IMG/VR virus record: IMGVR_UViG_3300030104_002502
Span: 1-58,408 of that record
Length of the DNA: 58,408 nt
Direction: 5' to 3' (one strand)
DNA from: a virus
Each line of letters starts with the position of its first letter. The first letter of the stretch is position 1. Below are positions 12,072-42,897 of this stretch, piece by piece. The notes below the pieces were generated by a model, which saw only the letters and a list, made by a program, of their open reading frames with translations, searched no databases and was not told the DNA's origin. A program made the position numbers and the translations under genes.

Positions 12072-12317
12072 ATGTCAGATAAAAAACAAGAAATTGACTC
12101 AGTCAATTTTGATGGTGAACAATATTTAATAAAAAACCTTACTTCTAGGGTTTTAGAGCATCTTAACCTTTTAGTTAAATTACAAAGTGCTATAGCAGAA
12201 ATTGCGTTTGATTTAAAAGTTAAACAAAGTGCACAGCTACATATTTCTGAAGAAGTAAAAAGTTTTATTAAAGAAGATAAAATTAAACCTAATTTAAAAA
12301 AGGACAACAATGGCTAA
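12072..12317 (+). CDS. Small lysis-cassette protein of unknown function, DUF6447-like
   Basis: 81 residues, charged and helical with no membrane segment. VNFDGEQYLIKNLTSRVLEHL followed by a helical repeat resembles small phage proteins of the DUF6447 type, but I am not certain. It lies between holin and endolysin genes and overlaps the latter by eight bases, so it is co-translated with lysis functions. Confidence 0.5.
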   Translation: MSDKKQEIDSVNFDGEQYLIKNLTSRVLEHLNLLVKLQSAIAEIAFDLKVKQSAQLHISEEVKSFIKEDKIKPNLKKDNNG

Positions 12318-12687
12318 CTGGAAATACTTTTCTGAAAATGAATTAAAGTGCAAACATAGTGGTATTTGCAATATGGATGATGATTTCATGCAAAAACTAG
12401 ATATAATACGAGAAGAGGTAGGAGTGCCTTTTATAGTAACTAGTGCTTATCGAGATAAAACTCATCCAATAGAAGCCAAGAAAAAAACGCCAGGGGCCCA
12501 TGCTTCTGGTAAGGCGATCGACATACTAATACGTGGCAAGGATGCTTTAAATTTAATTGAAGTAGCCCTTAAACATGGTATTACAGGGCTAGGGGTAAAA
12601 CAGCATGGCGATAGCCGATTTATACATCTTGATACGCTCGATGCGCAACCAAGTAGACCTAGACCACATATATGGAGTTACAAGTGA
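12310..12687 (+). CDS. Endolysin, peptidase M15 (D,D/L,D-carboxypeptidase type)
   Basis: 125 residues starting with FSENELKCKHSGICNMDD, the usual N-terminus of phage M15_3 peptidases. The zinc-site signature is present: TSAYRDKTHPIEAKKKTPGA, then HASGKAIDI (the SxHxxGxAxD pattern) and the distal HLDT. The enzyme would cut peptide cross-links in murein. It is full length for a single-domain endolysin and has no signal peptide, consistent with holin-dependent export by the upstream gene. Confidence 0.88.
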   Translation: MANWKYFSENELKCKHSGICNMDDDFMQKLDIIREEVGVPFIVTSAYRDKTHPIEAKKKTPGAHASGKAIDILIRGKDALNLIEVALKHGITGLGVKQHGDSRFIHLDTLDAQPSRPRPHIWSYK

Positions 12688-12959
12688 TCGACGAAGTATC
12701 AAATAGATTAGACAAATTAGAAGGTAAAATAGACAGGCTTGCAGATGCCGTCATAACTATTGCTCGTATAGAAGAAAGGGTAACCACTGTATTGAAACAA
12801 AACGATAGATTTATCATGCGTTTAGACAGGCTCGAAGATAGAGTAGAGACTGTTGAACAAACTACTAAGCTAAACAAAAAAGATGTAAGCAACGGCGAAC
12901 GTGTGTTTTGGGTTGTCTTTTCGGCAGTTATAGCCGCAATAATGTATACTTTCAGATGA
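12684..12959 (+). CDS. Coiled-coil protein with C-terminal membrane anchor
   Basis: The GTG at 12684 is preferred because GGAG lies six bases upstream and the codon overlaps the endolysin stop as GTGA; an ATG at 12672 would also work. About 91 residues: heptad-patterned helix (IDEVSNRLDKLEGKIDRLAD and LDRLEDRVETVEQ), then a hydrophobic segment VFWVVFSAVIAAIMYTF at the end. Its place after the endolysin suggests a holin-accessory or spanin-like role, which is inference. Confidence 0.55.
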   Translation: MIDEVSNRLDKLEGKIDRLADAVITIARIEERVTTVLKQNDRFIMRLDRLEDRVETVEQTTKLNKKDVSNGERVFWVVFSAVIAAIMYTFR

Positions 12960-31974: not shown

Positions 31975-32002
31975 TTGACATTCATCCTGAATGCTTTATG
32001 TT
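31975..32002 (+). promoter_or_regulatory. Sigma70-type promoter of the inserted rightward cassette
   Basis: A perfect -35 TTGACA (31975-31980) and TATGTT (31997-32002) lie 16 bases apart, about 50 bases before the ATG at 32051. A short inverted repeat, ACAC-AATTAA-GTGT (about 32012-32026), follows, and could be an operator. A second TATATA box lies closer to the gene. Confidence 0.6.
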
Positions 32003-32050: not shown

Positions 32051-32461
32051 ATGGCAACTTTTACAAGTGATCCTGTTTCAGGTAACCAGTCATTCAAACC
32101 ATTTCCTAGTGGTGCGATTGGCGTAAGATACGCTAAGTTTAATGTAACTGCTGCACCAAATGCTGCTGATGTATACCAAATGGTAGATATCTTTGCTGGT
32201 GAAACTTTACATGACATCAAAATTAAATCTTCTGATTTAGACACAGGCTCAGGTTTAGTACTTGACGTTGGTGACGCTACAGATCCAGATAGATTTATTG
32301 ATGGTTCTACAATCGGCCAAGCCGGTGGTACAGACCATGAAGATGCAAACCTTGCTCCTATTACCTATAGTGCAGATGATACTATTGACATTACTTGTCA
32401 AGTAGCACCTGCAGGTGATGTTGCAACTGGCACATTAGAAATGTGGATTTACATATCGTAA
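32051..32461 (+). CDS. Probable capsid decoration/virion beta protein in autonomous cassette
   Basis: 136 residues from ATG 32051 after AAAGGTG. Almost wholly beta with no Lys-rich stretch: SDPVSGNQSFKPFPSGAIGV, VYQMVDIFAGETLHDIKIKS, GSGLVLDVGDATDPDRFIDG, and a C-terminus LEMWIYIS. This resembles small head-decoration or head-fibre proteins of marine phages. It is the only rightward gene within 21 kb of leftward genes and has its own promoter and terminator, so it is probably expressed strongly and late. Confidence 0.7.
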   Translation: MATFTSDPVSGNQSFKPFPSGAIGVRYAKFNVTAAPNAADVYQMVDIFAGETLHDIKIKSSDLDTGSGLVLDVGDATDPDRFIDGSTIGQAGGTDHEDANLAPITYSADDTIDITCQVAPAGDVATGTLEMWIYIS

Positions 32462-32477
32462 GTTAAGCAAATCTTAA

Positions 32478-32504
32478 AGGGGTCTTTATAGGCCCCTTTT
32501 TTTT
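32478..32504 (+). terminator. Rho-independent terminator of the rightward cassette
   Basis: Seven-base stem (AGGGGTC at 32478-32484 with GGCCCCT at 32491-32497), a six-base loop and eight T residues. It overlaps the 3' end of the opposing leftward gene. Confidence 0.9.
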
Positions 32505-32707
32505 GCTGCTTCATTTGAATTAGCCATTGTTTGTTTTATATCGTTTGCTATAACAAACTCAGCCCAACTTTTTTTCCATTGAACATGGTTCATGGTTGCA
32601 GTTTTAACATCATCAACAGAGATGTCATACTTTTTAGCAGTGTTACGAACACCCATAGATAAGCAATCATCATGAACATCATGCATCCAACGTTTCATAG
32701 CTCCCAT
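32486..32707 (-). CDS. Small hypothetical protein ending in the opposing terminator
   Basis: 73 residues, helical and mixed charge: MKRWMHDVHDDCLSMGVRNT, HVQWKKSWAEFVIANDI. The GAMKRW start overlaps the upstream stop as TAATG. Its last codons form one arm of the rightward terminator, so sequence here serves two purposes. Family unknown; an HTH-like fold is possible. Confidence 0.6.
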   Translation of the reverse strand: MGAMKRWMHDVHDDCLSMGVRNTAKKYDISVDDVKTATMNHVQWKKSWAEFVIANDIKQTMANSNEAAKKRGL

Positions 32708-33543
32708 TAGTTATCTAATAGTTTACTAGTTAACACAGTGCTATTCATTTCTTCTTTAACTTCATCAGGTAAGATAGCATTTGGATCAAACTTAGGTAAA
32801 TTAGAAGGAACAGAAGGTTTAGCTGCTTCAAACATTTTATCTAAATAGCTTTGGGGAACGCAGTCTTTACCTGCAGGCCATGTATCTAAAAATCGTTTAA
32901 GTGTAGTACAACTTTTTAACAAATGTTTTATTTGAAGTTTAGATTCGTTAATCTTTATAGTACCTTCAGCAAACTTATTAATATCACTTATATCTGTAGA
33001 AGATGAAACAATTATAGGGTTTTTATAAGATTCCACATTTTCTTCTGCAGACCATATTCCATTTCTTTCATGGTTTTGTACAAGTTGAATAGGTTCATCT
33101 AACTGTAATGTTAAAGATACATCGCCATCTACGTAATTATCACTTGGTGGATTTTCTTTATCATCATAACGATTTGTATAACCTGGATGCCAATCTTCGC
33201 CAGTCATAAAAGTTAATGATTCGTCATGTGGTCGATGTGAATTAATAACAAAATTAATTTCTCTAACTTGATTAAAATCTGATCGGCCATGATAACCTTT
33301 AAAATATTTTTTAGGTGAAAATTCTTCATTAGCTTTTTTAGGATTTTTAAACCTAAATATACGCTCATGCAATTTTAAATAATCATTCATTAATTCGCGT
33401 TCTTCAACCGAATAAAATGATTCTAAAATAGACTTAAGATAGTCTTGTAGACCACTATTGTTTTCGTATACTTTATAAATTTGCTCTTTAAAATTTTTAT
33501 AAATTTTATCTCGCAATTCTCCACTCATTCTTACACTTGCCAT
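32707..33543 (-). CDS. Paralogue B of the MoxR/VWA block
   Basis: ATG 33543 is chosen: it has GGAGG nine bases upstream, overlaps the previous stop (TAATG), and aligns with the start of the paralogue at 36370. 278 residues. Shared features with that protein: the N-terminus SVRMSGELRDKI, a central LDTWPAGKD...YLDKMFEAA and the C-terminal MNSTVLTSKLLDN. The middle domain is beta-rich with no known enzyme motif. Probable partner or substrate of the MoxR ATPase. Confidence 0.7.
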   Translation of the reverse strand: MASVRMSGELRDKIYKNFKEQIYKVYENNSGLQDYLKSILESFYSVEERELMNDYLKLHERIFRFKNPKKANEEFSPKKYFKGYHGRSDFNQVREINFVINSHRPHDESLTFMTGEDWHPGYTNRYDDKENPPSDNYVDGDVSLTLQLDEPIQLVQNHERNGIWSAEENVESYKNPIIVSSSTDISDINKFAEGTIKINESKLQIKHLLKSCTTLKRFLDTWPAGKDCVPQSYLDKMFEAAKPSVPSNLPKFDPNAILPDEVKEEMNSTVLTSKLLDN

Positions 33544-33869
33544 TACACTTTCCTCCATGTAGGTTTTACTTTTTGCCACTTAATTGTGGGAGTATTAATT
33601 ACAAACTTGTTAAAAACTCGCTTAGGCTGTTTTGTAACAGTTAGTTTTTCATGCACCATAGTCTTTTTAAGAATAAAAAGAATAATGGATGCAGTTAAGC
33701 CACCAACCATAGCTGCAGTCATGCCACTGTAAGTGCCATAAAAACAAACCATTAAGGTGACTGTAATAATGACATCTATAAAGATGTCATTACCAATTGT
33801 TTTGCGTCCACCTGCTTTAAGCGCTAGCAAAAGCAGTCCTAGCGCGCTCACTATACCGATTAACAACAT
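33543..33869 (-). CDS. Two-TM small membrane protein
   Basis: 108 residues from the ATG with GGAGGGA upstream. Hydrophobic segments LLIGIVSALGLLLLALKAGG and IFIDVIITVTLMVCFYGTYS, then MTAAMVGGLTASIILFILKK, followed by a basic tail. Likely three membrane passes. Encoded directly upstream of paralogue B. Function unknown. Confidence 0.65.
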   Translation of the reverse strand: MLLIGIVSALGLLLLALKAGGRKTIGNDIFIDVIITVTLMVCFYGTYSGMTAAMVGGLTASIILFILKKTMVHEKLTVTKQPKRVFNKFVINTPTIKWQKVKPTWRKV

Positions 33870-33972
33870 TGTTTCTGTCCCTCCACATAAGATATGCCAT
33901 ATAGGCAAATTGAATTAATTCGATCATTATCCACATAGCTGTGGTAATACTAGTTATTACAGTACTAGACAT
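33817..33972 (-). CDS. 51-residue single-TM protein
   Basis: Starts at ATG 33972 with a strong GGAGGATATTAG leader. Sequence: MSSTVITSITTAMWIMIELI then QFAYMAYLMWRDRNNVV, giving one membrane helix and a basic tail. It overlaps the next small membrane gene by 53 bases. Too short for family assignment, but the leader and position make it credible. Confidence 0.6.
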   Translation of the reverse strand: MSSTVITSITTAMWIMIELIQFAYMAYLMWRDRNNVVNRYSERARTAFASA

Positions 33973-34150
33973 CTAATATCCTCCAGATTAAATATATAAC
34001 TGCACCCAATGCTATTGAGATTGCAATTAACATTAAAAAATGATGCATAGATGTTGCGATAGCTAATAAGCCAAGCAACACTGCACCGCCAGTTAAAATA
34101 GAAAGACCGAAGTCTTTAATATTTTGTTTAAATTTTGATGATTTCACCAT
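33965..34150 (-). CDS. 61-residue two-TM protein
   Basis: A basic N-terminus (MVKSSKFKQNIKDFG) and two hydrophobic segments (LSILTGGAVLLGLLAIATS and FLMLIAISIALGAVIYLIW). It overlaps the VWA gene's end by 23 bases and the next small gene's start. The third small membrane protein in the MoxR/VWA block. Confidence 0.65.
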   Translation of the reverse strand: MVKSSKFKQNIKDFGLSILTGGAVLLGLLAIATSMHHFLMLIAISIALGAVIYLIWRILDV

Positions 34151-35225
34151 AAGGTGCTTCTCCTTCGTGTGTTGTTATCCACAAGACCGGATAACTTGGT
34201 CTGTCTCCAAAATCGCTAGACTCAAGATCTGTAAGATAAACTAAAGCACTAACATTTGGATAATTTTCATTTATATATTCAATGCCAGGTGAGAAACAAG
34301 TTCCACCTCTACCAGTCATAGTAGTTTTAAGAGGAAGCGACTCGCGTGTGTACTCAGTATAATTTTGTACTTCAGTGTCTACTTCTACAAAATGAACTTT
34401 AGTAGGGTTGGCATCAAGAATAATAGAAGAAATTTCTGCAAGGTCTTGGTTTAGTTCTTCGTCAGTTCTAGAGCCTGATGTATCAGACACAACTGCAATT
34501 TCATCAACTGATGGGTTGTACATAGAAGGTAAATACAAGCCTTGGCCAATAAAACGACGATTAGGTTTTTGCCAACTAAAGTCGTCTGTGTTGTTAGAAC
34601 GCAAGAACCTAGCAAGTACTTGTTTCCAACATACTTTAGGTTCTTTAATTTCATCAAGTATAGATTCTAGTGAGCCAGGTAGTTTACCAGCTTTGCGTGC
34701 ACTTTCTGCTGCTTGATTAATTGCAACAGTAAGTTCTGCTTTAGCTTTACCAATGCTACCGTCTTCAGTGCCAGGATGGTCAAGCACAGCACCACAATTG
34801 CCAAAGTCAACAGCTAAAGATTCCCAGCCACCTTCGGGTTCAGGAAGTAAGTTGTATATTTCTTCGGCATTCATGTTGTCGTATTGTTCATCAAGTAAGG
34901 CACCTTTAGGTAATATAAAGTTAGCTTGTTTGAGTAAATAATTTTCTGCATAGTCGCATGCAACGTTCCACTTTTGTGGTTGACGTTCTTCTCTACGAAA
35001 TATGTGCATAAGCACAACATGCATAACTTCATGCGCAAGAAAACCAATACGCTCTAAAGGTTGCAATTTGTCAAACCATTTGGGATTATAGAAAAGATGC
35101 ACACCATCTGTGGCACCCGTATCCATGTCATCACGTTCAACGGGTTTGAGGCGAAGACAAAGGGTGCCAAAGAATGGCTGGTTGAGCACAAGCTGTGTGC
35201 GTGCATTTGTAAAATTTTGACTCAT
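34128..35225 (-). CDS. DUF2201/VWA-like metallopeptidase-domain protein
   Basis: 365 residues. An N-terminal zinc-peptidase-like helix FLAHEVMHVVLMHIFRREER (HExxH), then the VWA part: MIDAS motif VVSDTSGSRTDEEL, downstream Thr TMTGRGGTCFSPGIEYI and VYLTDLESSDFG. The combination is the DUF2201 architecture that normally pairs with a MoxR AAA+ ATPase, which is encoded at 37402-36380. Known pairs act in metal insertion or protein maturation; here the target is unknown. Confidence 0.85.
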   Translation of the reverse strand: MSQNFTNARTQLVLNQPFFGTLCLRLKPVERDDMDTGATDGVHLFYNPKWFDKLQPLERIGFLAHEVMHVVLMHIFRREERQPQKWNVACDYAENYLLKQANFILPKGALLDEQYDNMNAEEIYNLLPEPEGGWESLAVDFGNCGAVLDHPGTEDGSIGKAKAELTVAINQAAESARKAGKLPGSLESILDEIKEPKVCWKQVLARFLRSNNTDDFSWQKPNRRFIGQGLYLPSMYNPSVDEIAVVSDTSGSRTDEELNQDLAEISSIILDANPTKVHFVEVDTEVQNYTEYTRESLPLKTTMTGRGGTCFSPGIEYINENYPNVSALVYLTDLESSDFGDRPSYPVLWITTHEGEAPYGEIIKI

Positions 35226-35228
35226 AAG

Positions 35229-35609
35229 TTACTCCTTATTACTTATTACTAATTGTTCAGTTTCAGCAGTCATACCTGGTTTAAGATATTTAAGTTTAAA
35301 TTCTTTATTAGCAGGTATAAGTTTACTAATTTCACATTCACTGATGTCTAGTTTTAAATTTCTAGACCAGTGAGCGTTACGTAGATTAGGTACATCTTCT
35401 GTACTAGTACCGTAATGTTTAGCTACTTGATAAAACCAACCACTGGGATTATGTCTTGCATAATATTGAGGCACATTTCCTTCACGCATATCTTTGTCAT
35501 GTCTACGATTACGTTTGACTTTGTTGATCATAGCTTTGCAATGACCAGAGCCAAAATATATACGTACATAATCGCCTTGGTTGTATTTAGGTGGGCCTAT
35601 TTCTAACAT
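35229..35609 (-). CDS. Hypothetical protein of the MoxR/VWA block
   Basis: 126 residues, beginning MLEIGPPKYNQGDYVRIYFG, a possible SH3-like barrel, with a basic region (INKVKRNRRHDKDM) and a KHYGTSTEDV helix. It sits between paralogue A and the VWA gene, three bases from its upstream neighbour. Unknown function. Confidence 0.6.
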   Translation of the reverse strand: MLEIGPPKYNQGDYVRIYFGSGHCKAMINKVKRNRRHDKDMREGNVPQYYARHNPSGWFYQVAKHYGTSTEDVPNLRNAHWSRNLKLDISECEISKLIPANKEFKLKYLKPGMTAETEQLVISNKE

Positions 35610-35611
35610 AA

Positions 35612-36370
35612 TTAATCTCCTAATAATGATGCAGTTAAAATAACTGAGTTAAGTTCTTGTTCTTGCACTTCAATAGCTTCTCGCTGTTGCTGTTGCTTAG
35701 CTTTGCGTTCTACTTTTTCGTAGACTTTGTCTAATTTAGTTTGAGATACAAGATCTTTAAGTGCAGGCCAAGCTTTAAGTGCTTGGTTTAAGGTTGTAAA
35801 AGACGCAATAGTTTCTTGTACTTTTTGTTTGTATTCTCTACCGCCTGTATATAATTTATCGTTGTATTCTCGGGTAGAAACTAACTCAGAAAGTAAAGGA
35901 CAACTAAGATCAACATATTCTCTACATGGGTTGTCGTCTTTGTCGTTACCAGTGATATCTATATGAAGTCTAACTGTTACGTATTCATTGTAACCTTCAG
36001 GATCTTTAGATAACAAAGCCATAATTTCTCTGTTAGATACATCTAAATCAAAGTCCATGTGTTCGTTAACAAGTTCCATTGTAGCGTTGCCTTCATAATC
36101 AGTTTGTTCTTGGATATCACTGTATGTAAGTAATAAACGCAATTTAGTTATAGGCTTAATTTTTGCATAAATAGGATCTATAACTGATACATTTTCTTCA
36201 GAAAGCAAAAATGTTTGCATGTTTTCATGCTTTTGTTTTAGATATTTGTCATACATTTTGTTACCCATATCAGAAGGAATTTCTCGTTCTGGGTTTGCTT
36301 TGTCGTAAGTGTTTATTGCTTCTCTTGCAATATCACGTTGTAGTTGATCTGACATTCTTACTGTGCTCAT
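35612..36370 (-). CDS. Paralogue A of the MoxR/VWA block
   Basis: 252 residues after GGAGG. Shares N-terminal STVRMSDQLQRDI, central LNQALKAWPALKDLVSQTKL and C-terminal LNSVILTASLLGD with the protein at 33543. A beta-rich centre (ATMELVNEHMDFDLDVSNRE, YVTVRLHIDITGND) suggests a beta-sandwich between helical ends. It immediately follows the MoxR gene. No family recalled; a regulatory or substrate-like role is inferred. Confidence 0.7.
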   Translation of the reverse strand: MSTVRMSDQLQRDIAREAINTYDKANPEREIPSDMGNKMYDKYLKQKHENMQTFLLSEENVSVIDPIYAKIKPITKLRLLLTYSDIQEQTDYEGNATMELVNEHMDFDLDVSNREIMALLSKDPEGYNEYVTVRLHIDITGNDKDDNPCREYVDLSCPLLSELVSTREYNDKLYTGGREYKQKVQETIASFTTLNQALKAWPALKDLVSQTKLDKVYEKVERKAKQQQQREAIEVQEQELNSVILTASLLGD

Positions 36371-36379
36371 GTTTACCTC

Positions 36380-37402
36380 CTATGATAATAAGCCGTGATT
36401 ATCTTGAATCCATTTAGTACAAAATTGATTTTTGATAAAGTCTTTGTTAATTGCGAAAATACCTTTCATTAGTATTACTTGAAACTCTGATGGGAGTTTG
36501 TTACATACTTTGATAATATTTTCTAGGGTGTCATCACTCGCTCGGGTAGCGATAGATGTTGAAAGTGCATACAAGACAGCTGGGTTGTCATCTTTCTTGT
36601 ATTTACCAGGGTCTTTGATAAGTTCGTCGATATCTTGTAACTTGTCAGCTATTTGTTTGTAAGCAACAAACTCGCCAGCTGGGCCGTCGCCGACTGTCGC
36701 TGCGACACCAAAGAAGAGTGTATCGTCGTTGGCGGTCGACGGTCGATTAGATAGCTTTTTGTCAACAAACGCCCACGAACGTGGTGTTGGGAATGCATAC
36801 TCGTCAGCTTTGAAACTGTTAAGTAAGCCAGGTCTGTAACGCAAGAAGCCAATAACTTCTGAGTTAATACCATTTTTAAAAGCCCACTCAACCCAGTCAT
36901 CAATGCTTGCTTCGAGTTCGTAATGCAATAGACGATTACGTACTGGTGTTGGCATTTGGAATACAGCAGCTGAGTCAGTCAGTCTGTTACCTGCGGCAAC
37001 AATTGACCAGCCAACTGGCATTTCATAATCACCAATTTGTCTAGTTAACAAGAGTTGCAGGAAAGCGTTCTGCGTAGCTGGTGGTGCAGTAGGCAATTCG
37101 TCAATGAAGAGAATACCCGTTTCGCCATCGCGTGATGCAATAGGAAACACATCAGGCACTGCCCAACGTGTAAAACGCTTCCCTGTTTCTTGTTCTTGCA
37201 TAATGTGAGGTATGCCACGCACATCGACTGGGTCGAATAAGTTGGCACGGAAGTCAAGCAACGGTATACCTAAGTCATCAGCTACCTGTTGTGGTATGTC
37301 TGACTTACCAATACCTGGCCCACCCCATATCATGGTGTTAAGTCCTGTACGGATGTTATCTTTAATCTCAGATTTGAGATCGTTTGGGTTAATGTTGTTC
37401 AT
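36380..37402 (-). CDS. MoxR-type AAA+ ATPase
   Basis: 340 residues, AGGAGG upstream. Walker A WGGPGIGKSDIPQQ, Walker B GILFIDELPTAP, sensor-1 IVAAGNR and arginine-finger region PTPVRNRLLH, then a winged-helix-like lid with PTPRSWAFVDKKLS. These are MoxR features, chaperone-like ATPases that work with VWA proteins. The VWA partner lies at 35225-34128. It heads the ~5-kb block. Confidence 0.92.
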   Translation of the reverse strand: MNNINPNDLKSEIKDNIRTGLNTMIWGGPGIGKSDIPQQVADDLGIPLLDFRANLFDPVDVRGIPHIMQEQETGKRFTRWAVPDVFPIASRDGETGILFIDELPTAPPATQNAFLQLLLTRQIGDYEMPVGWSIVAAGNRLTDSAAVFQMPTPVRNRLLHYELEASIDDWVEWAFKNGINSEVIGFLRYRPGLLNSFKADEYAFPTPRSWAFVDKKLSNRPSTANDDTLFFGVAATVGDGPAGEFVAYKQIADKLQDIDELIKDPGKYKKDDNPAVLYALSTSIATRASDDTLENIIKVCNKLPSEFQVILMKGIFAINKDFIKNQFCTKWIQDNHGLLS

Positions 37403-42238: not shown

Positions 42239-42265
42239 CAACCAAACGCTGTTAAGCGTTGGTTG
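42239..42265. repeat. Dispersed hairpin family, copy 3 (contains a stop codon)
   Basis: CAACCAAACGCT pairs with AGCGTTGGTTG; the TAA of the AlkB-like gene (42252-42254) lies in the loop. A TATTAT box with TTGGTT 16 bases upstream follows on the leftward strand, a possible promoter for the next gene. Confidence 0.75.
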
Positions 42266-42857
42266 CAATGGTTCTCCAGGTCAGGTTGTATCTAGCGTGA
42301 GCATAGATAGGTCCTGATGCTTCTTCATCGTATCCGCAGGATTCGACTCTGGCTGGTATTGGTAAGCCAACGCCATGCCTGAGCTTGGTGAAGAAGTTAC
42401 GGTTACCAATCAGGAAGTCGCCTTGGCGAACTTCAACTGAATTGTTGCCGTAGTAGAATGGAGCTGATGCCCCAATGCTCAAAGATGCAATGGGCCCGAT
42501 TAGTTCGGGTTCATCGTCTTTGTGCATTGCCAGCTTTTGAGTGCCGATGTATCGGTTAATCAAAAGGTGGTTAAAAAGTGGTAGCTTTTCAGGGTTGAAG
42601 CCCATTTCGATGGCGTTGCGCCTCGCAAGGTCAGTGAAATCAGAGAGCATGTCAAAGTCCGCAAGGTCTTTGGCAATGTGGTCTCTGCCCGTGTAACGGT
42701 AATTCAGACCAGGCTCTCCGAGCCACGCAGTGTCTCGGCCGAATTCGGTAACGAATTCTAGCCTGTCGAATTCCGCCTCGAGGCAAGGGAAGCAAAGTCC
42801 AGTGATGGTCTTTGCGAGATATGCCCCGAGTGTGGGGTCTTTGTAAATAAATTCCAT
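42252..42857 (-). CDS. AlkB-like 2-oxoglutarate/Fe(II) dioxygenase
   Basis: 201 residues from ATG 42857 (AAGGAGG upstream). NRYIGTQKLAMHKDDEPEL holds the HxD iron ligands, SIGASAPFYY follows, then the distal His in FTKLRHGV and the ARYNLTWR motif that binds 2-oxoglutarate. This is the core of AlkB DNA/RNA demethylases. A role in repair of alkylated phage DNA or RNA, or reversal of a host modification, is plausible. Full length for the core fold. Confidence 0.88.
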   Translation of the reverse strand: MEFIYKDPTLGAYLAKTITGLCFPCLEAEFDRLEFVTEFGRDTAWLGEPGLNYRYTGRDHIAKDLADFDMLSDFTDLARRNAIEMGFNPEKLPLFNHLLINRYIGTQKLAMHKDDEPELIGPIASLSIGASAPFYYGNNSVEVRQGDFLIGNRNFFTKLRHGVGLPIPARVESCGYDEEASGPIYAHARYNLTWRTIATNA

Positions 42858-42897
42858 AGTTCCTCCTTGGAAATTGAATTTGCACAACTAAAACCAA

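Follow-up and report, generated by a model that had tools for sequence, protein, structure and literature searches.

A phage MoxR-VWA gene block with an Nmad5-like third gene and a pair of paralogues

Pairs of a MoxR-type AAA+ ATPase and a protein carrying a VWA domain are known in phages; they are core genes of many phages. This two-partner machine is represented by the families PHROG_1297 and PHROG_1314 and by gp24 and gp25 of phage N4 (PMC7824862). VWA domains with a metal ion-dependent adhesion site (MIDAS) are described as peptide-capturing co-chaperones of MoxR proteins, the captured substrate peptide being remodelled with ATP (PMC7159879). The Nmad5 family owes its name only to gene neighbourhoods, and a link between it and a defence system (Tmn) has been made once. 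We describe here a block of genes in 58,408 nucleotides of viral DNA (IMG/VR record IMGVR_UViG_3300030104_002502, positions 1 to 58,408; this whole stretch is called the window), in which a MoxR-VWA pair is accompanied by two paralogous Nmad5-like (NM) proteins, A (NMa) and B (NMb), and by three small membrane proteins, tm1 to tm3. The original prediction had rightly treated the pair as already known. The third component and the paralogue pair appear to be new: no paper describing a MoxR-Nmad5-VWA arrangement was found in the literature searched, and the cultured phages examined that have the pair carry no NM gene between MoxR and VWA.

The gene block and its conservation

To keep the test free of circularity, loci were collected from IMG/VR by means of alignments of MoxR or VWA and not of NM. 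An NM gene is located between MoxR and VWA in 105 of the 106 distinct loci having both, and the lone exception, L186, is truncated at the end of its contig. The median gap is 10 nucleotides from NM to MoxR and 0 nucleotides from NM to VWA. In the reverse fetch with an alignment of A, MoxR and/or VWA stands beside NM in all loci (79/79), and the 12 of these without one partner are all cut by contig ends. A is a near-obligatory member of the block, the obligatory third gene beside MoxR and VWA. The block is kept as a unit in relatives, as had been proposed, and the proposed bespoke substrate or adaptor is the natural reading of such a gene. The second NM gene is less widespread: among the 65 loci with DNA polymerase also in view, B is present in 27.

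The relatives come almost only from IMG/VR and are uncultured, mostly marine phages; in 50,697 isolate records, tblastn found no relative of A, of B or of a further NM protein. At one locus (L266, PBPT01000002.1) the complete cassette, including two NM genes, is located on a contig of 60.8 kb that has been assigned to a metagenome-assembled genome of Ca. Neomarinimicrobiota, and this gives only a hint of the host.

The genes of the block in the window are as follows.

36380..37402, minus strand: MoxR-type AAA+ ATPase, 340 residues; PHROG_1297 match, conserved Walker A/B, sensor and Arg residues
35612..36370, minus strand: paralogue A (NMa), Nmad5-like, 252 residues, between MoxR and VWA; Pfam Nmad5 match, AlphaFold2 model
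35229..35609, minus strand: clade-specific protein of 126 residues, between A and VWA; dN/dS, presence in the close clade
34128..35225, minus strand: metallopeptidase-like (HExxHxxxxH) and VWA (MIDAS) co-chaperone, 365 residues; DUF2201_N and DUF2201 matches
33965..34150, minus strand: tm1, 61 residues, one to two predicted membrane segments; hydropathy, conservation
33817..33972, minus strand: tm2, 51 residues, one predicted membrane segment, highly conserved; hydropathy, conservation
33543..33869, minus strand: tm3, 108 residues, three predicted membrane segments, basic C-terminus, highly conserved; hydropathy, conservation
32707..33543, minus strand: paralogue B (NMb), 278 residues from the preferred ATG, 290 from GTG 33579; profile match to A
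32486..32707, minus strand: orf73, 73 residues, final gene of the run after B; syntenic in relatives

All the block genes lie in a single tight minus-strand run, and those first predicted are real open reading frames at the places given; the 126-residue gene and orf73 had been left out. A ribosome site of the AGGAG or GGAGG type is found just 5' of A, the 126-residue gene, VWA and B each, while VWA/tm1, tm1/tm2, tm2/tm3 and the tm3 stop and B start overlap. The start of B had been placed at GTG 33579. It is most likely the ATG at 33543, which is preceded by GGAGG and overlaps the stop of tm3 as TAATG. The start of tm3 is probably at 33869, within tm2.

The ATPase matches PHROG_1297, which is labelled "ATPase", with E=8.8e-91 and has intact Walker A and B motifs; its scores against Pfam AAA_5, AAA_3 and bpMoxR are all under the cut-off. 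Residues K33, D101, E102, R157 and R208 are present in 187/187 aligned homologues and N139 in 186/187; over the Walker A/B, sensor (sensor 1 Asn) and Arg (Arg finger) residues the range is 180-187 of 187. The VWA protein scores 187.9 bits against DUF2201_N and 88.4 bits against DUF2201, both over the cut-off, and contains the expected HExxH and MIDAS sequences as HEVMH and DTSGS. Its residues H65, E66, H69 and H74, together with D248, S250, S252 and T309, are found in 210/210 homologues, and D333 in 209/210, the sole exception being D333V. The VWA domain forms the end of the protein and no effector domain is fused to its C-terminus. No convincing relatives by sequence were found in the PDB for VWA, MoxR or NM. 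VWA homologues occur in 637 isolate phage records. The family (N4 gp25) is labelled "HNH endonuclease" in PHROG_1314 and hence in many GenBank records; the Pfam match, together with the invariance of HExxHxxxxH and of the MIDAS residues, points instead to DUF2201.

The three small membrane proteins predicted between A and B are all present, with predicted membrane segments. In the same 65 loci the trio is located after VWA 47 times and before MoxR 6 times; the 12 loci without it are distant. The position before MoxR is seen at L132, L135, L136, L138, L139, L143 and L266, and since the trio is found in either place, it relocates as one block. Conservation of tm2 and tm3 is about that of DNA polymerase. 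A holin function for tm3 is not favoured; a candidate endolysin, an M15 peptidase-like protein (12310-12687, plus strand), is encoded among the late genes, and the product of the small gene next to it (12672-12959) has a single hydrophobic segment, at the C-terminus. The 126-residue protein is found only in the close clade of the window and evolves fast (dN/dS, the ratio of nonsynonymous to synonymous substitution rates, 0.37-0.45).

The block is nearly always located close upstream of DNA polymerase, and it might be supposed that the machine remodels the replication complex of the phage itself. This is improbable, as the membrane trio and the fast-evolving middles of A and B described below would have no explanation, and the adjacency may reflect only early or middle expression.

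Paralogues A and B and the Nmad5 family

The paralogy proposed for A and B, for which a profile comparison had been set as the test, is significant. A BLASTP match (E=2e-10) is confined to the C-terminal 75 residues or so, while the profile-profile alignment (hhalign) covers the full length with a probability of 99.7% and E=1.6e-25. In view of both matches, the common motifs (S/T)VRMS, WPA(L/G)KD and LNSxxLT are not due to chance. All three motifs are real, the first and the last at the N- and C-terminus as described, but the WP motif belongs to the C-terminal third and not to the centre. Chance similarity of the two proteins is ruled out by the BLASTP and profile matches, the tree and the common fold matches.

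A is a member of the Pfam family Nmad5 (PF18757), with 31.3 bits over a cut-off of 27; B is tied to the family only via A, by the profile match, and through the fold search. At E<0.01, 46 of the 80 A-type and 11 of the 38 B-type proteins match Nmad5, and any other family is matched by at most two members. The order of elements is also the same in the free Nmad5 proteins examined (YuA gp15, Dhillonvirus SM_S22, HK542, Schitoviridae SP-058 and D454, and others), which begin with a start of the R(L/M)(T/S/N) type, continue with a WP motif and have LN close to the C-terminus. Models were obtained with AlphaFold2 for A and B, with predicted local distance difference test (pLDDT) values of 87.7 and 79.0, respectively. 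The layout is common to both: N-terminal helices, long strands, one long helix, the WP helices and, beyond a low-confidence linker, a C-terminal helix. When A and B were run separately in a BFVD fold search, the same top models were returned, and proteins named Nmad appear in both lists. The model of A has no match among PDB folds at E<=0.001. Judged by these profiles and predicted folds, A and B are diverged members of the Nmad5 family, a relationship that had been missed.

In a tree of 133 NM proteins, the B copies, with one exception (L194), form one clade and the A copies the other. This protein seems mislabelled by its position, because a second VWA match is found at that locus. The two clades point to an old duplication, and the simplest reading is that one such event was followed by retention of the copies in fixed positions. 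A recent duplication within the window is ruled out by the tree, and the presence of both clades in relatives means that the pair is not peculiar to the window. The predicted paralogue pair is thus real, with A alone near-universal and B an old duplicate.

The name Nmad5 recalls modification of DNA, and M6/YuA-type phages have an Nmad5 gene in their hypermodification operon (PMC9476957). The NM proteins could accordingly help to make modified bases or nucleotides, with MoxR-VWA activating the enzyme, and the window does encode a 2-oxoglutarate-Fe(II) oxygenase superfamily protein (42252-42887, minus strand; PF13532, E=1.1e-12). However, the scan of window proteins revealed no pyrimidine hydroxymethylase, aGPT-PPlase or nucleotide kinase, and Schitoviridae and a lambdoid phage (close to gene N) have free Nmad5 genes outside such operons. 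We consider this function to be hardly probable.

Conserved ends, variable middles and proposed function

In both A and B the N- and C-terminal parts are conserved and the middle, which is β-rich in A, is variable. Where VWA is 60-70% identical between phages, the identity is 66% for MoxR, 60% for tm2, 70% for tm3 and 67% for DNA polymerase, but only 19% for the middles of A and B, with 43% and 37% for their respective C-termini. Over a wider range (VWA 54-73% identical) the middles are at 13-30% and the C-termini at 37-62%. Against three close relatives, dN/dS is 0.34-0.80 for the middles of A and B and 0.01-0.13 for MoxR and VWA. The conserved C-terminal part comprises about 70 residues and is more than a peptide. 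A tail of the type (L/I/V)-L-T-xx-LL-G-D is present in 130 of the 133 MoxR-linked NM proteins and in none of the 9 free Nmad5 proteins; the regular expression was settled after inspection of the sequences, so that this count is a description and not an independent test.

A variable precursor with a conserved C-terminus is the pattern described for bacterial VMAP systems (PMC7159879), in which cleavage has been proposed for peptides of the FxSxx-COOH type. By analogy, the zincin-like domain of the VWA protein, with its HExxHxxxxH invariant in 210/210, might cleave the conserved tail of the diverging NM proteins. No cleavage site was recognised, the whole 70-residue part is conserved and not just a peptide, and no radical SAM partner was found among the scanned window proteins. 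Such peptide processing is quite unlikely.

An obligatory third protein whose conserved tail is tethered and whose middle varies would suit a role as adaptor or client of the machine. We tentatively favour, with somewhat less than even confidence, a MoxR-VWA remodeller with dedicated Nmad5-fold adaptors or clients, whose tails would dock on the machine while the variable middle faces a changing target, probably of the host. The MoxR AAA+ ring and the metallopeptidase-VWA co-chaperone would act with their own Nmad5-fold partner or partners: NMa in essentially all members, and the anciently duplicated NMb as a second partner in many. The conserved trio of small membrane proteins would belong to the same machine. 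Docking of NM on VWA/MoxR may involve both the conserved N-terminal part (VRMS) and the C-terminal helix (LN-x-V-I/L-L-T-xx-LLGD) on its flexible tether. The changing target contacted by the β-rich middle would most likely be a host protein or a defence complex. It would be met close to the inner membrane in the early or middle phase of infection, and the complex would then be remodelled through ATP hydrolysis.

A host or defence target is suggested by the fast-evolving middle and by a finding on Dhillonvirus Nmad5, in which the substitution K296E lets phages escape Tmn (PMC11846954); at least one member of the family is thus linked to host defence. The Trp of the common WP motif follows K296 at a distance of five residues, and the equivalents of K296 are Q196 in A and R229 in B. 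The Dhillonvirus gene could not be cloned, owing to apparent toxicity (PMC11846954). A membrane complex, host protein maturation and counter-defence had first been put forward as possible targets.

Several points weigh against the remodeller with dedicated partners. The score of B against Pfam Nmad5 is 19.5 bits, under the cut-off of 27. The Dhillonvirus protein has been linked to the triggering of Tmn and is not an anti-Tmn protein, and its deletion gave no escape (PMC11846954). PADLOC, which does not cover anti-defence genes, gave no defence model for VWA or NM and matched MoxR weakly. The dN/dS values are below 1 everywhere and the high ones could be explained by relaxed constraint, so that target-driven selection is suggested, not shown. 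The tail comparison includes only nine free proteins, and a distant clade without the C-terminal acidic residue keeps an intact MIDAS. Binding of an acidic C-terminus by the MIDAS, in the form of a simple contact, is unsupported because of this clade.

Alternatively, the pair may serve to assemble or process virion proteins, and NM would be a scaffold or client; a role of this kind has been proposed in group 2.2 jumbo phages (PMC7824862) and in Acidianus two-tailed virus. Virion proteins adjoin the gp24/gp25 homologues in the N4-like phage RPP1 (PMC4193335), and a conserved cement-like gene lies antisense inside the present operon. This gene (136 residues, 32051-32461, plus strand) runs against the direction of the replication operon; a promoter-like site is located at 31975-32002 and a strong terminator-like site at 32476-32499. 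Its family profile matches cement or decoration proteins of the PDB (7eel_H, E=3.5e-11; 8h89_J, 2e-9). More than 80 homologous open reading frames were found in relatives, those listed being opposite to the operon strand and typically between orf73 and orf70. The jumbo-phage proposal, the RPP1 neighbours and the cement-like gene keep virion assembly in consideration as an unlikely explanation. On the other side, the block sits in the replication operon beside DNA polymerase, and the structural genes are encoded on the other strand; the NMa model matches no solved fold and no structural family; and fast-evolving middles would not be expected in an internal assembly factor.

The favoured remodeller can be extended to a phage ternary MoxR-VWA system with two anciently duplicated Nmad5-fold adaptors, whose conserved ends would dock and whose fast-diverging middles would bind targets. 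The adaptors would hand over changing complexes of the host, immune or membrane, to a membrane-associated remodeller driven by ATP. This extension is possible but doubtful. If correct, it would represent a general counter-defence or host-takeover machine, and Nmad5 would be recast as an adaptor fold and not a DNA-modification domain. The clade provides a defined protein pair and a tail to probe, and the target of phage MoxR-VWA machines thereby becomes a testable question.

Comparison with known systems

The closest pair is N4 gp24/gp25 of Schitoviridae (PHROG_1297/PHROG_1314), in which homologous MoxR and metallopeptidase-VWA genes are adjacent and the active sites are the same. Unlike the present block, N4, EcP1 and SBP1 have no Nmad5-like gene between the pair and no membrane trio, while in SP-058 and D454 a free Nmad5 is found several kb from the pair. 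Group 2.2 jumbo phages (PMC7824862) also possess the pair with its N-terminal metallopeptidase domain; however, the large phages examined, PA5oct and phage G, and likewise cyanophage S-TIM61, lack a third gene of the Nmad5 type within 6 kb.

Members of the Nmad5 family (PF18757; YuA gp15, Dhillonvirus) resemble A and B in the N-terminal VRLT/VRMS, the WP motif, the LN near the C-terminus and the predicted fold. The free proteins differ in ending with LNxxIGLP, without an LLGD-type tail, and in those examined no MoxR-VWA pair is directly beside the gene.

The bacterial MoxR-vWA ternary conflict systems (PMC7159879) have VMAP, iSTAND, FtsH or a β-propeller as the third protein, whereas here it is Nmad5-like; the system described here is also phage-borne and its VWA protein has no fused effector domain. 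In both, the third protein is obligatory and a variable part stands beside a conserved core.

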